A program made the translations under genes and the position numbers. Positions 14,633 to 35,534 of a stretch of 38,058 bases of DNA are shown piece by piece (the stretch's first letter is position 1; each line of letters starts with the position of its first letter). The notes beneath the pieces were generated by a model. That model was not told the DNA's origin and did not search any database. It worked only from the letters and a program-made list of their open reading frames with translations. The stretch covers positions 1 to 38,058 of the forward strand of contig JAFXVA010000003.1 in assembly GCA_017534965.1 (NCBI GenBank). Reading direction: 5' to 3'. Source of the stretch: Elusimicrobiaceae bacterium (GTDB lineage Bacteria; Elusimicrobiota; Elusimicrobia; Elusimicrobiales; Elusimicrobiaceae).

Positions 14633-15244
14633 ATGAAAGAAAATTGTAATTGCAGTCAAGAATATGGAACAAGATATCCCACTTTATGTTTTTACAGCGG
14701 TGGTGCAGGGCAGGCCCAAGACGGCATTCCGCCACAACCTTTTGAAACTTTTTGCTATGATTCTGCCTTAAAACAAGCCAAAATAGAAAACTTTAATGTT
14801 ATACCCTACACTTCTGTTTTACCAAAGGAATTATACGGCAATATCGTGCCGGTAGATAAAGTTGTGGATAGTTTTCACCACGGGGCTGTTTTAGAAGTTA
14901 TCATGGCCGGCAACGGGGCAAATATTAACGAACATAAAGCTATTGCCACCGGCGTAGGTATATGCTGGGGTAAAGATAAAAAAGGCAATTTAATCGGCGG
15001 ATGGGCAGCAGAATATGTGGAATATTTCAGCACCCCGATTGACGATGAAATAGCCGAAGGCCACGCAAAAATGTGGCTTAATAAATCTTTAAAACACGAA
15101 CTTGAACTTAGAGGTGTCCAGAAGCATAGCGAGTTTCAATACTTCCATAACTATCTAAACTTAACTCAACCTTTTGGTTATTGTTTAACAGTTCTTGGTT
15201 TTTTAAACTTTAGAAACGCTGCCCCGGTAGTTATTAAAAAATAG
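14633..15244 (+). CDS. aaxB: Pyruvoyl-dependent arginine decarboxylase
   Basis: This enzyme converts arginine to agmatine and CO2 using a pyruvoyl group formed by self-cleavage. The 203-residue proenzyme has the cleavage site in [15 protein letters not shown]: cutting between T60 and S61 gives a 60-residue beta chain and an alpha chain whose new N-terminus is the pyruvoyl. Downstream, [21 protein letters not shown] and the WAAEYVEYF segment with the conserved proton-donor Glu fit the PvlArgDC family, which has about 160-200 residues. The N-terminus carries two extra Cys (NCNCS). It lies between an AaxA-like porin and an AaxC-like antiporter, which is the chlamydial aax layout. The product would consume protons and deplete arginine. 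Start supported by a GGGGGG ribosome site 11 bases upstream. Confidence 0.93.
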
Positions 15245-15265
15245 TTTAAAAAAGAAAATCTTAAA

Positions 15266-15313
15266 TCCCCTCCCTTGATTTTTGGCTTTACCCAATATAT
15301 TAAGGGAGGGTTT
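15266..15313 (+). other. Hairpin between aaxB and aaxC (attenuator or processing site)
   Basis: CCCTCCCTT (15268-15276) pairs with AAGGGAGGG (15302-15310), a 9-bp stem around a 25-base loop, followed by TTTAAAAAAT. The T-run is short, so partial termination or mRNA processing that sets the aaxB to aaxC ratio is more likely than full termination. Confidence 0.55.
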
Positions 15314-15336
15314 AAAAAATAGAAAATAGGTGATTT

Positions 15337-16788
15337 ATGGGAAAAAATAACAATAATACAGCAGGTAAACTTGGGGTTATAGGTCTTGCCGCAATTGTTA
15401 TCAGTTCTATGATTGGGGGCGGTATTTTTTCGCTTCCACAAAATATGGCGCAAAGTGCCAGCACAGGGGCTGTTTTAATTGCGTGGATAATAACGGGTAT
15501 CGGCATGTATTTTATCGCTAATACCTTTAGTATTTTATCGGAAGTTAAACCGGATTTAACTTCTGGTATTTATATGTATGCCAGAGACGGCTTTGGCCCT
15601 TTTACCGGTTTTACTATCGGGTGGGGTTATTGGCTTTCGCAGATATTTGGCAATGTGGGTTATGCCGTTATAACAATGGATGCTTTAAATTACTTTTTCC
15701 CCCCTCATTTTGCGGGCGGGAATAATTTGCTTTCCATTATTTGCGGTTCACTCTTAATATGGTTTTTTAACTTTGTTGTTTTAAGAGGTGTCCGTCAAGC
15801 TGCCATAATGAATATTATGGGCACTATTGCAAAACTTGTGCCCCTTGCTATTTTTATAATTTTACTTATCTTTGCTTTCCATTTTGATAAGTTTTGTTAT
15901 AATTTCTGGGGTCATTTAAGAACGGATAATCTTGGTCCTTTCAGCGTGCAACTTAAAAGCACAATGCTTGTTACTTTGTGGGCTTTTATCGGTATAGAAG
16001 GTGCAGTTGTTTTATCTAACAGGGCAAAAAGTCAAAATGAAGTTAGCAAGGCAACCTTTCTTGGTTTTATTGGGTGTTTGGTAATTTATATTTTACTTTC
16101 ACTTTTGCCTTTTGGTTTTATGGACCAGCAGGAAATTGCTAAAATTGCAAACCCATCAACTGCGGGTATTTTGGAAAAGCTCGTCGGTCCGTGGGGCAGT
16201 TGGCTTATGAATATAGGGCTCTTGATTGCCGTTTTATTTAGCTGGCTTGCCTGGACTATGATAGCAGCCGAAATACCTTGCGCGGCGGCAAAAAACGGCA
16301 CTTTTCCTAAACAATTTGCTAAGGAAAATAAAAACGGCGCGCCCTGTTTTTCTTTGTGGGTAACAAGTGCTATTATGCAACTGGCAATTCTTATGGTTTA
16401 TTTTTCAAATAATGCTTGGAACACTATGCTAAGTATTACAGGCGTAATGGTTTTGCCTGCTTATATTGCAAGCACAATGTATCTTTGGAAACTCGCCAGA
16501 AACGGCGAATATGAAAAAGCAAAAACAAGCGGTAAAATGCTTGCCGTTATGACGGGTATTTTGGGCTCTGTTTATGGTTTTTGGCTGATATATGCAGCAG
16601 GTTTAAAATACTTGTTTATGGCGTTCATTTTCCTTGCTATCGGCATACCTGTTTTTATGATAGCAAGAAAGCAAACTGCCGACGGGCAGGCAATTTTTGC
16701 CAAAAAGGAAAAAGGTTCAGTTTTCTTTATTCTTTTAGTTTCCCTTTGTGCGATAATTGCTTTTGCCGGCGGTTATTTGAAATTGTAA
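15337..16788 (+). CDS. aaxC: Arginine/agmatine antiporter, APC superfamily
   Basis: The 483-residue protein is a 12-segment membrane transporter. TM1 has the unwound substrate-binding motif SSMIGGGIFSLP, the hallmark of basic amino-acid/polyamine antiporters in the APC superfamily, and TM6 has LWAFIGIEGAVVLSNRAK, another family signature. Length fits AaxC/ArcD-type antiporters. It would import arginine in exchange for the agmatine made by AaxB, completing a proton-consuming cycle with AaxA supplying arginine to the periplasm. An AGGTGA ribosome site supports the ATG at 15337. It ends the operon, followed by an intrinsic terminator. Without this context it could be an arginine/ornithine or lysine exchanger. 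Confidence 0.88.
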   Translation: MGKNNNNTAGKLGVIGLAAIVISSMIGGGIFSLPQNMAQSASTGAVLIAWIITGIGMYFIANTFSILSEVKPDLTSGIYMYARDGFGPFTGFTIGWGYWLSQIFGNVGYAVITMDALNYFFPPHFAGGNNLLSIICGSLLIWFFNFVVLRGVRQAAIMNIMGTIAKLVPLAIFIILLIFAFHFDKFCYNFWGHLRTDNLGPFSVQLKSTMLVTLWAFIGIEGAVVLSNRAKSQNEVSKATFLGFIGCLVIYILLSLLPFGFMDQQEIAKIANPSTAGILEKLVGPWGSWLMNIGLLIAVLFSWLAWTMIAAEIPCAAAKNGTFPKQFAKENKNGAPCFSLWVTSAIMQLAILMVYFSNNAWNTMLSITGVMVLPAYIASTMYLWKLARNGEYEKAKTSGKMLAVMTGILGSVYGFWLIYAAGLKYLFMAFIFLAIGIPVFMIARKQTADGQAIFAKKEKGSVFFILLVSLCAIIAFAGGYLKL

Positions 16789-18195: not shown

Positions 18196-18223
18196 AAAAT
18201 CCCCCTCTATTCTTAAAATTTAT

Positions 18224-18560
18224 GGGCTTATACCCCGGATTCTGTTGCTTTAGTAAAAACTAAAGCCGGAAACCATTTGTCTAAGCGGCCTACTTTACCT
18301 TAGCGCAGGGGCCCTGCATCGGCGTCTTTGGCCTTGCTCCAAGCGGGGTTTGCCTTGCCATAAAGATTGCTCCTTATGCGGTGGTCTCTTAAACCGCCAT
18401 TTCACCCTTACCTATCAAAGATAGGCGGTATCTTTTCTGCTGCACTTTCCGTCGAACAGGGTAATATAGCCCTGCCCTCCCGCGTTTTCACACGGCGCTT
18501 TTGCCCTAGGAGTCCGGAAGTTCCTCCCCCATACAAAGTATGAAAGCGGTTTCCCAGCCC
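18224..18560 (-). ncRNA. rnpB: RNase P RNA (class A)
   Basis: The ribozyme that matures tRNA 5' ends. On the minus strand the ends pair as P1 (GGGCU at the 5' end, AGCCC at the 3' end). The conserved regions appear in order: GGAGGAACUUCCGGACUCC (CR I, slightly variant), AGUGCAGCAGAAAA, GGUAAGGGUGAAAUGGCGG and AAGAGACCACCGC (CR II/III), GGAGCAAGGCCAAA (CR IV) and AACAGAAUCCGG (CR V). About 337 nt, a compact class A RNA. It begins 4 bases after the rnhA stop, so its promoter must lie inside rnhA or it is cut from that transcript. It accounts for the whole 369-base gap between coding genes. Confidence 0.95.
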
Positions 18561-18564
18561 ATAA

Positions 18565-19236
18565 TTATATTTTATCAAATAATTCAAGTTGAACGGGTTT
18601 TTTTATTTCCGTTTTGGCTGTTTTTTTCTTTGTAGGAGTTTTGGTAAAAATAGGGTCTTTTTGTGCTTTTTCTTTTTTTACTTCTTTTTTAGGAGCAGTT
18701 TTTTTGACCACTTTTTTTATGACGGCTGGCTGAAGTTTTGAAACTTCTTCTTTTTTAGTTTCTGTTTTATTTATAACAGGTTTTGGTTCTTCTTTAACAA
18801 TGTCAGAAGTTAAAACAGGTTTTACAGGGGCATTTTTTAAAGCCCTATCCATAATGATATTGCAAATTTCATCGGCTTCTTTGTTTTGTTCGCGCGGAAC
18901 ATGGGTAATAGAAATTTGCTTAAATTTCCCGGCAAGTTGTTTAATTTCGCCCATTAAAATTTGAAGTTCCGGATTTTTTATTTTATATTCGCCAAGATAT
19001 TGGCGCACCATTAATTGAGAATCTGCTTTAATAGTTAAGGAACATTTACCATAGTCGCTTGCTGCTTTTAAAGCCATTTTTAAGGCAGTAAATTCCGCTT
19101 GGTTATTGGTACACTCTTTAAAGAATAAACCTTCTTTAACAAGAATATTACCTTGTTTATCTTTTATTATCCAACCACTTGCCCCAGGGCCGGGATTTCC
19201 GCGGCTTCCGCCGTCAACATTGATAAATAATTCCAT
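18565..19236 (-). CDS. rnhA: RNase HI family protein with basic tail and clamp-binding-like C-terminus
   Basis: RNase HI removes the RNA strand of RNA-DNA hybrids. Residues 1-130 carry the fold and active-site acids: D8 in NVDGGSRGNPGP, E48 in TNNQAEFTAL, D72 in KADSQLMV and D122 in NKEADEICN, with H112 in the THVPRE loop. It belongs to the short-loop RNase HI family rather than the E. coli form with a basic protrusion. From about 135 to 215 is a low-complexity Lys/Thr/Pro/Glu tail, probably disordered. The protein ends in QLELFDKI: Q216-L-E-L-F220 fits the QLxLF pattern of bacterial sliding-clamp ligands, so the tail may tether the enzyme to the replisome. Weak ribosome site; lies directly upstream of rnpB. 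Confidence 0.9.
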   Translation of the reverse strand: MELFINVDGGSRGNPGPGASGWIIKDKQGNILVKEGLFFKECTNNQAEFTALKMALKAASDYGKCSLTIKADSQLMVRQYLGEYKIKNPELQILMGEIKQLAGKFKQISITHVPREQNKEADEICNIIMDRALKNAPVKPVLTSDIVKEEPKPVINKTETKKEEVSKLQPAVIKKVVKKTAPKKEVKKEKAQKDPIFTKTPTKKKTAKTEIKKPVQLELFDKI

Positions 19237-34097: not shown

Positions 34098-34631
34098 ATG
34101 GATGATTTAAAAAAATATTTTATGCAATACTTTTGGGATGTCATAAAAAATCAATATTTTGATTTTGGCGGTAAAGCCACGCGTAAGCAATTTTGGCTTT
34201 TCTTTGCTTGGAATTATGCTTTATATTTACTCTTTTATATGGGGACACAAGTTATAGCAAGCATGATATTTTTTGTTAATGAGAAAGTAGCCGTCGTAGT
34301 TGGAATTATACTGATGTCTGTTTATAGTATTATATCCTTAGCTTTATTTATACCAAATCTTGCTATACAATGTCGCAGATTTAGAGATGCCGGGGTAAGT
34401 CCGTGGTGGCTTTTACTTCCGTTTGTATTATGTGGTATAACATCAATGGTTATGCTATATGCTATTGGTGTTGGTGTGCTTGGTGGCGAGTTTACGCATT
34501 CTTTGCTGGCAATAATAATTATTACATTTTTATTATGTTTTTTAACTCTTGTGGCCTGGCTTATAGTTTTAATATTACCCAGCGGATTTTTTAACAAGGA
34601 AAAGGGAAACTTGAATATTATTCAAAAATAA
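34098..34631 (+). CDS. DUF805 membrane protein 1
   Basis: The 177-residue protein has the DUF805 N-terminal signature FDFGGKATRKQFWLFFAWNY followed by four hydrophobic segments and the mid-protein RRFRDAGVSPWWLLLP, also typical of the family. A TAGGAG ribosome site lies 7 bases before the ATG. First of three tandem paralogues. Function of DUF805 is unknown; this copy has a long insert between the last two membrane segments compared with the next one. Confidence 0.88.
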   Translation: MDDLKKYFMQYFWDVIKNQYFDFGGKATRKQFWLFFAWNYALYLLFYMGTQVIASMIFFVNEKVAVVVGIILMSVYSIISLALFIPNLAIQCRRFRDAGVSPWWLLLPFVLCGITSMVMLYAIGVGVLGGEFTHSLLAIIIITFLLCFLTLVAWLIVLILPSGFFNKEKGNLNIIQK

Positions 34632-34673
34632 TATATAGTATTTTTGTTGTTAATTTATTTGGAGGAAGTTATA

Positions 34674-34997
34674 ATGAATAAATATTTTATTGATGTCATC
34701 AAAAATCATTATATTGATTTTGCTGGCAAAGCAACAAGAACACAATTTTGGATGTTTGTATTGTGGGACTTTATTGTCGGTTTCGTTTTAGGCCTTGTTT
34801 GCGGTATGTTCTTGAAAGGGCAAACTGCAAATATGGTAAGTATGCTTTATACTCTTGCTTTGCTCTTGCCAAGCCTTGGTATTGCCGCAAGAAGACTTAG
34901 AGACGGCGGTTTTACACCTTGGCTTCTCTTGTTAGGTTTTATTCCCGTTATTGGCTGGCTTATTTTGCTCGTCCTTTATATTATGCCAAGCAAATAA
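34674..34997 (+). CDS. DUF805 membrane protein 2
   Basis: Start placed at 34674, because GGAGGAA lies 7 bases upstream; an in-frame start at 34644 would add ten residues and has no ribosome site. The 107-residue product has FAGKATRTQFWMFVLWDF, RRLRDGGFTPWLLLLGFIP and the final LLVLYIMPSK, the compact core of DUF805 with four membrane segments. Paralogue of the flanking genes; an intrinsic terminator follows. Confidence 0.88.
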   Translation: MNKYFIDVIKNHYIDFAGKATRTQFWMFVLWDFIVGFVLGLVCGMFLKGQTANMVSMLYTLALLLPSLGIAARRLRDGGFTPWLLLLGFIPVIGWLILLVLYIMPSK

Positions 34998-35016
34998 GAG
35001 TATTTGAAATATAAAT

Positions 35017-35048
35017 AAAGCCCTTGTTTTTTAGCAAGGGCTTTTTTA
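35017..35048 (+). terminator. Intrinsic terminator after DUF805 gene 2
   Basis: AAAGCCCTTG / CAAGGGCTTT stem, 8-base loop, T-run. The loop-distal sequence is nearly the same as in the terminator at 10295-10333. Confidence 0.88.
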
Positions 35049-35084
35049 TAATTATTATCCTTTATCAAAGGAGAAAATTAAAAT

Positions 35085-35534
35085 ATGTTCAAAACTTATT
35101 TTATAGATGTGCTTATACATCACTACGCCGATTTTAAAGGCAGAGCTACCCGCAAACAATTTTGGATGTGGTTTTTGTGCTGTTTTATAATAACTTTTGC
35201 AGTTTCTTTCGTGTTAAATTTTATAGCAGGTTTTTGTGAGGGTATGCAGCTTCCATCTGCGCCGCAAATAAAAGAGACACTTAACTCTATTAATATCATG
35301 TTTACTAATATTTGGGTTATTGCTATTTTATTACCCAATGTATCTATATCGGCCCGTAGAATAAAAGATGCGGGTTTACCAGTTCTTCTGGTTTTACTAA
35401 TGATTCCCAGTTATATAGTTTTAATAATGAATATGTTTGCTCAAAAACCTCCTTTAGAATTATCTGGTTTTTCGTGCCTTGCAGGAATTGTAGTTTTTAT
35501 TCTCTGGCTATTACCTAGCAAAAAAACAGAGTAA
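35085..35534 (+). CDS. DUF805 membrane protein 3
   Basis: The 149-residue protein shares DFKGRATRKQFWMWFLCCF and ARRIKDAGLPVLLVLL with the two preceding genes and ends in WLLPSKKTE. Four hydrophobic segments with a longer loop after the first, containing the only charged-rich stretch (PQIKETLNSIN). Separated from copy 2 by a terminator and with its own AAAGGAG ribosome site, so it may be independently transcribed. Confidence 0.88.
   Translation: MFKTYFIDVLIHHYADFKGRATRKQFWMWFLCCFIITFAVSFVLNFIAGFCEGMQLPSAPQIKETLNSINIMFTNIWVIAILLPNVSISARRIKDAGLPVLLVLLMIPSYIVLIMNMFAQKPPLELSGFSCLAGIVVFILWLLPSKKTE

Follow-up and report, generated by a model that had tools for sequence, protein, structure and literature searches.

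Archaeal RNase HII binds PCNA through a PCNA-interacting peptide (PIP) box. Eukaryotic RNase H2 bound to PCNA has also been described (PMC11731006, in its available portion), and in both systems an RNase H is tethered to the sliding clamp by a short peptide. The recruitment of E. coli RNase HI by SSB, stated in a first reading of the DNA treated here that was made without database searches (the sequence-only reading), is in print, and E. coli RNase HII does not bind the clamp (both in the available sections of PMC11253446). The beta-clamp partners named in the accessible part of the literature are DnaE, Pol II, Pol IV, UmuC, MutS and RecB, with no RNase HI among them; a clamp-bound bacterial RNase HI goes unnamed in the available text of the reviews PMC11253446 and PMC13220808, and no report of one was found in the open-access literature, subscription papers and preprints lying outside that scope. 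Here we describe an RNase HI gene with a C-terminal QLELF in a 38,058-nucleotide stretch of an Elusimicrobiaceae genome (assembly GCA_017534965.1, contig JAFXVA010000003.1, positions 1 to 38,058; the whole stretch is referred to as the window). We propose, with a probability of about 0.8, that this RNase HI is tethered to the beta clamp, with QLELF docking in the pocket of DnaN and a disordered linker serving as its leash.

The gene, its parts and its immediate neighbor are as follows:

18565..19236, minus strand: RNase HI (RVT_3 type) of 223 amino acids with a C-terminal clamp-binding-like motif (open reading frame translation, Pfam)
18832..19236, minus strand: catalytic RNase H domain, residues 1-135 (alignment, AlphaFold2)
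18592..18831, minus strand: disordered Lys-rich linker, residues 136-215 (Lys count, AlphaFold2)
18577..18591, minus strand: QLELF, residues 216-220, predicted beta-clamp-binding motif, followed by DKI and the stop codon (translation, conservation, published consensus)
18215..18565, minus strand: RNase P RNA (rnpB, RF00010, class A) (Rfam match)

The window protein matches RVT_3 (PF13456, E = 2.2e-23) and RNase_H (PF00075, E = 1.1e-10) over residues 6-126. Residues D8, E48, D72 and D122, which we take from general knowledge of the family to be the four acidic catalytic residues, are invariant in an alignment of 38 homologues. The nearest solved relatives are 4e19 (presumably the RNase HI of a halophilic archaeon), 3hst (the N-terminal domain of M. 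tuberculosis Rv2228c) and two further RNases H, 3u3g and 4h8k, and all four match the core only. The catalytic domain and its acidic active-site residues are the same as in the RVT_3-type enzymes 3hst and 4e19, and relative to these solved RNases HI the linker and terminal Q..LF are an addition found in this order. The protein is thus a type 1 RNase H of the RVT_3 branch with intact catalytic residues; it is ordinary for its enzyme family and is predicted to cleave RNA-DNA hybrids. Its C-terminus reads KKPVQLELFDKI and is followed directly by the stop codon; the presence of QLELFDKI at the end of an RNase HI, after an 80-residue Lys-rich disordered tail, as proposed in the sequence-only reading, was confirmed by translation, Pfam and AlphaFold2, and the positions given for it there (18565-18740) take in the final stretch of the tail and nothing before it. 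AlphaFold2 assigns a predicted local distance difference test (pLDDT) score of about 97 to core residues 1-133 and of about 50-60 to the tail, which is predicted to be disordered and so places QLELF in an accessible, flexible segment. Across residues 211-220, the stretch containing QLELF, pLDDT rises locally to as much as 79, and conservation in the alignment alone may be the source of this rise.

Sixty related genomes were sampled first, 36 from the window's family (f1) and 24 from a sister family (f2), and a clear homologue was found in 47 of them (35/36 in f1, 12/24 in f2), that of G013 being among the nearest at 87% identity. Q..LF stands at the C-terminus of 46 of these 47 proteins, with 0-5 residues after it, and it was also present in 12/12 further genomes of the order from a phylum sample and in 16 of 17 additional genomes of the order with a readable gene end, an 18th (L448) being cut by the contig end and excluded from the count. 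The RNase HI of genome G018, like that of the window, ends in QLELF. Taken together, 74 of the 76 readable homologues of the order have Q..LF near the stop codon, so that conservation in related genomes, which the sequence-only reading had left to be checked, turned out to be retention and not absence from close homologues. The background rate, drawn from open reading frames of the fetched loci, is far lower: a C-terminal Q..LF occurs in only 2 of 612 other open reading frames of at least 150 amino acids in the Elusimicrobiota loci and the window, one of the two being the RNase HII of G025. The difference (74/76 against 2/612) is more than chance would give and counts in favor of the clamp-motif reading. 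A DNA-pattern count of Q..LF ends in the window's genome (at least 572 forward and at least 997 reverse matches, in any frame) was too permissive and was not used. Left out of the phylum-sample counts were L191-L194 (no profile match) and L195-L201 (weak matches, to another RNase H type), and the weakly matching family f12 was mostly not fetched.

QLELF fits the published clamp-binding consensus QL[S/D]LF as well as its revised form Q-phi-x-[L/M]-[F/L] (PMC13254535 and PMC9690074, available sections), which bears out the QLxLF consensus on which the sequence-only reading relied. In this it resembles the bacterial beta-clamp ligands DnaE, Pol II, Pol IV, UmuC, MutS and RecB, and it sits on a disordered C-terminus. 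The clamp itself was found in 57/60 relatives, and in the pocket region of 30 DnaN sequences L155, T172, G174, R176, L177, P242, M362 and P363 (E. coli numbering) show no variation, and 29 of the sequences retain N320; judged by these residues, the host clamp keeps its peptide pocket. Apart from five that are in print, the pocket positions used here are those we take E. coli DnaN to have. The five, L177, Y244, V247, M364 and R365, are among the pocket residues named in the available text of PMC13254535.

Known clamp ligands of the same order served as controls. At the site in DnaE where we presume the clamp to bind, xxLF is present in 29/29 readable proteins of a set of 30 (L304 is cut), with the Q present in 8. 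The three UmuC-type polymerases that were read have QPGLF (L349), QLDLF (L351) and QLDLC, the first two about 60-68 residues before the end; the clamp motif of E. coli UmuC is 357-QLNLF-361 (PMC3716654, available portion). These in-clade polymerase controls support the motif type. RNase HII, taken as a negative control, has Q..LF in 1/30 (L098 of G025, ending QQELFI); the C-terminus of the G018 enzyme (L106) has NQLEFL, and in the window's genus g1 GLF or SLF occurs without Q (L091), so RNase HII tails possibly bear weak clamp motifs too.

Since rnpB begins at the RNase HI stop codon in the window, with one base shared, and follows the RNase HI gene directly in 29/38 scanned loci of the order, the gene end might be conserved as DNA or RNA, for example because RNase P RNA has its promoter or 5' leader there. 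The codons speak otherwise: over 46 motif genes the Q is encoded by CAA 23 times and by CAG 23 times, five codons are used at the L position and two at the F position, and because these codons vary synonymously we take the peptide to be under selection. Moreover, the gap between the two genes is anywhere between −4 and +128 bases in the 17 loci measured, the motif persists in 9/9 scanned loci where no rnpB was detected (L013-L019, L021, L040), and homologues of other phyla that adjoin rnpB lack the motif. With codon variation, gap range and rnpB-less loci all against it, a DNA-level constraint from rnpB is largely refuted and has next to no chance of being correct; what is conserved, as far as the sequences tell, is the peptide rather than the DNA.

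Neither is the linker what is conserved. Its length varies freely (about 10-90 residues across the order), its sequence is poorly alignable, and the long Lys-rich form, present in the window protein as the sequence-only reading had it, is peculiar to close relatives of the window, whereas the members of sister family f2 are short-tailed and yet keep the terminal motif. These facts make it improbable that the Lys-rich tail itself does the targeting, by gripping nucleic acid in the manner of a hybrid-binding domain and with the motif as a minor extra, despite the 24 Lys among the 80 linker residues of the window protein and the finding that in 10 of the 12 f2 genomes lacking the tailed enzyme there is an RNase H1 whose C-terminus bears a hybrid-binding-like domain. 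A further possibility, which we regard as unlikely but less so, is that the conserved peptide binds some other partner, for instance from the replisome or the transcription machinery, or serves as a C-terminal degradation signal, and resembles a clamp ligand by coincidence. The clamp interaction is itself deduced, many members carry 2-5 further residues after the motif, and Pro is common at its second position, all of which would suit another partner. On the other hand, the motif retains Q, L and F at precisely the spacing of clamp ligands, polymerases of the order show both QL.LF and QP.LF at their UmuC-like site, and a degradation signal would presumably have no need of Q at that spacing.

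Several observations count against clamp binding and have to be set beside the evidence for it. The motif has been lost in two of the 76 homologues: in G049 the gene end after ...KENG is replaced by palindromic sequence, and G130 ends in EPPSLFGDF, a Q-to-P change. An overlapping sample with named records has the motif in 33/36 Elusimicrobia loci, the three misses being these same two genomes and L279, which ends in EAKKAV. The two losses show that the motif is not indispensable everywhere. Its second position, over 46 homologues, is P in 21, L in 19 and another residue (G, E, D, K or Q) in 6, and both Pro and these six lie outside the aliphatic phi of the consensus (position 3 is E or D in 29/46). 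The DnaN pocket differs from that of E. coli by R246Q, M364V and S346P. The window's own DnaE has ATFSLF, with no Q, at the clamp site; DinB of sister family f2 mostly has ESLF; and MutS, taken as a positive control, was a weak one, with a Q-type motif in only 5/30 and none in the last 120 residues of the other 25. By these sequences, some expected ligands of the order do without Q..LF, and the order tolerates a missing Q. The QP.LF form of the 21 RNases HI is nonetheless covered by the clamp reading, because QPGLF occurs at the UmuC-like site within the order. On balance, conservation, a free linker, codon variation, the retained pocket and the motifs of in-clade polymerases argue for the clamp-tethered bacterial RNase HI that the sequence-only reading had suggested.

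Outside the order the motif is scarce. Other orders of the class have it in 3/13 (QGLLF, QAELF, QGELF) and lack it in 10/13; in other classes of the phylum the five-residue motif occurs in 0/22, with one six-residue form, QLMLKF (L142); RNase HI homologues of other phyla have it in 0/44; and none of 23 relatives on viral contigs carries it, at least one of these (L373) being cut off early. In these samples, the terminal motif marks this lineage and not RNase HI at large. A tree was built from the catalytic core alone (92 rows, 135 columns) after 11 near-duplicate rows of the order were dropped, using 29 of the 44 other-phyla loci and 13 of the 22 other-class loci. The RNase HI of the order forms one branch (Shimodaira-Hasegawa-like approximate likelihood ratio test, SH-aLRT, 90). 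Presence and absence of the motif require six changes on this tree, or five if L142 is scored as lacking it. Counts of this kind cannot separate gain from loss, and the tree has few columns and many open forks. The pattern would fit a single acquisition at the order's base followed by two losses, besides separate events elsewhere.

Beside the tailed enzyme, the 36 genomes of the window's family yielded no second RNase HI; PF00075 had no match in G003, G016 or G023, and G003 and G016 nonetheless have the tailed enzyme. RNase HII is present in 58/60 relatives. Removal of primers by RNase HI alone was considered and rejected, as a PolA-type 5' nuclease is present in 59/60 relatives. In sister family f2, 15/24 genomes have a classical RNase H1 with a hybrid-binding-like (Cauli_VI) domain at its C-terminus (L376-L390); in eukaryotic RNase H1 the hybrid-binding domain is N-terminal. 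Besides the ten f2 genomes mentioned above, this enzyme occurs in 5 of the 12 that do have the tailed RNase HI (including G049, whose tail is broken), and two genomes, G041 and G048, have neither. These counts, uncorrected for relatedness, are suggestive of an exchange between the tailed RNase HI and the hybrid-binding RNase H1 in f2. No match to the hybrid-binding domain (Cauli_VI, PF01693) was found in the window's genome.

With the clamp tether as the favored reading, the enzyme might work as follows. The QLELF peptide would dock in the peptide pocket of DnaN, and the disordered linker, tens of residues long, would let the catalytic domain search near the ring. The tether would hold RNase HI at replication forks and also on the clamps that stay behind on the lagging strand. 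At the 3' end of a completed Okazaki fragment, such a clamp would have the next RNA primer directly ahead of it; clamps at the fork would meet R-loops, on which the tethered enzyme could act. Its purpose would then be the removal of primers and R-loops, although in primer removal RNase HI would be only an aid, because a full-length PolA with its 5' nuclease domain is present. More tentatively, at a little short of even odds, the order (Elusimicrobiales-like) may rely mainly on a stably clamp-tethered RNase HI to remove hybrids, the tether having originated a single time at the order's base and probably a second time in a related lineage of the class. In the absence of the tether, an RNase H1 whose hybrid-binding domain is C-terminal would usually substitute, making clamp tether and hybrid grip two interchangeable ways of holding RNase H on its substrate.

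The linkage of RNase HI to RNase P RNA extends beyond the order. In other phyla, 6/16 scanned loci (L215, L219, L223, L230, L235, L264) have an RVT_3-type RNase HI gene immediately upstream of rnpB, the groups concerned including Thermosediminibacteraceae, Deltaproteobacteria and Chloroflexi, and the linkage is apparently ancient; nothing obvious on it was found in the open-access literature. At the junction itself, a palindromic repeat at the RNase HI gene end removed the terminal motif in G049 (L038), and in L041 a short palindrome, different from that of G049, lies between the stop codon and rnpB. Elsewhere in the window, a pyruvoyl-dependent arginine decarboxylase gene followed by one for a basic amino acid/polyamine antiporter (14633-16788) is likely an arginine-agmatine acid-resistance pair, and three consecutive genes encode DUF805 domains (34098-35534).

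Set against the described systems, the predicted arrangement shares with E. coli RNase HI the delivery of the enzyme to the replication fork, but there it is by way of the SSB C-terminus and here it would be by way of the clamp. The RNases H with PIP boxes are of type 2 and not type 1 and use a different clamp motif, so the likeness is a parallel solution with no shared origin; indeed, the PIP box has two aromatic residues (consensus in the available part of PMC9690074), a pattern that the tail QLELFDKI lacks. What is new is the combination of an ordinary RNase HI with a clamp motif of a known kind, conserved through an order. If the reading is true, this clamp-motif RNase HI, present throughout a lineage, would offer a bacterial parallel to the RNases H that archaea and eukaryotes tether to PCNA, and since the same enzyme family is found in related bacteria both tethered and untethered, what clamp tethering does for the removal of R-loops and primers would be measurable.
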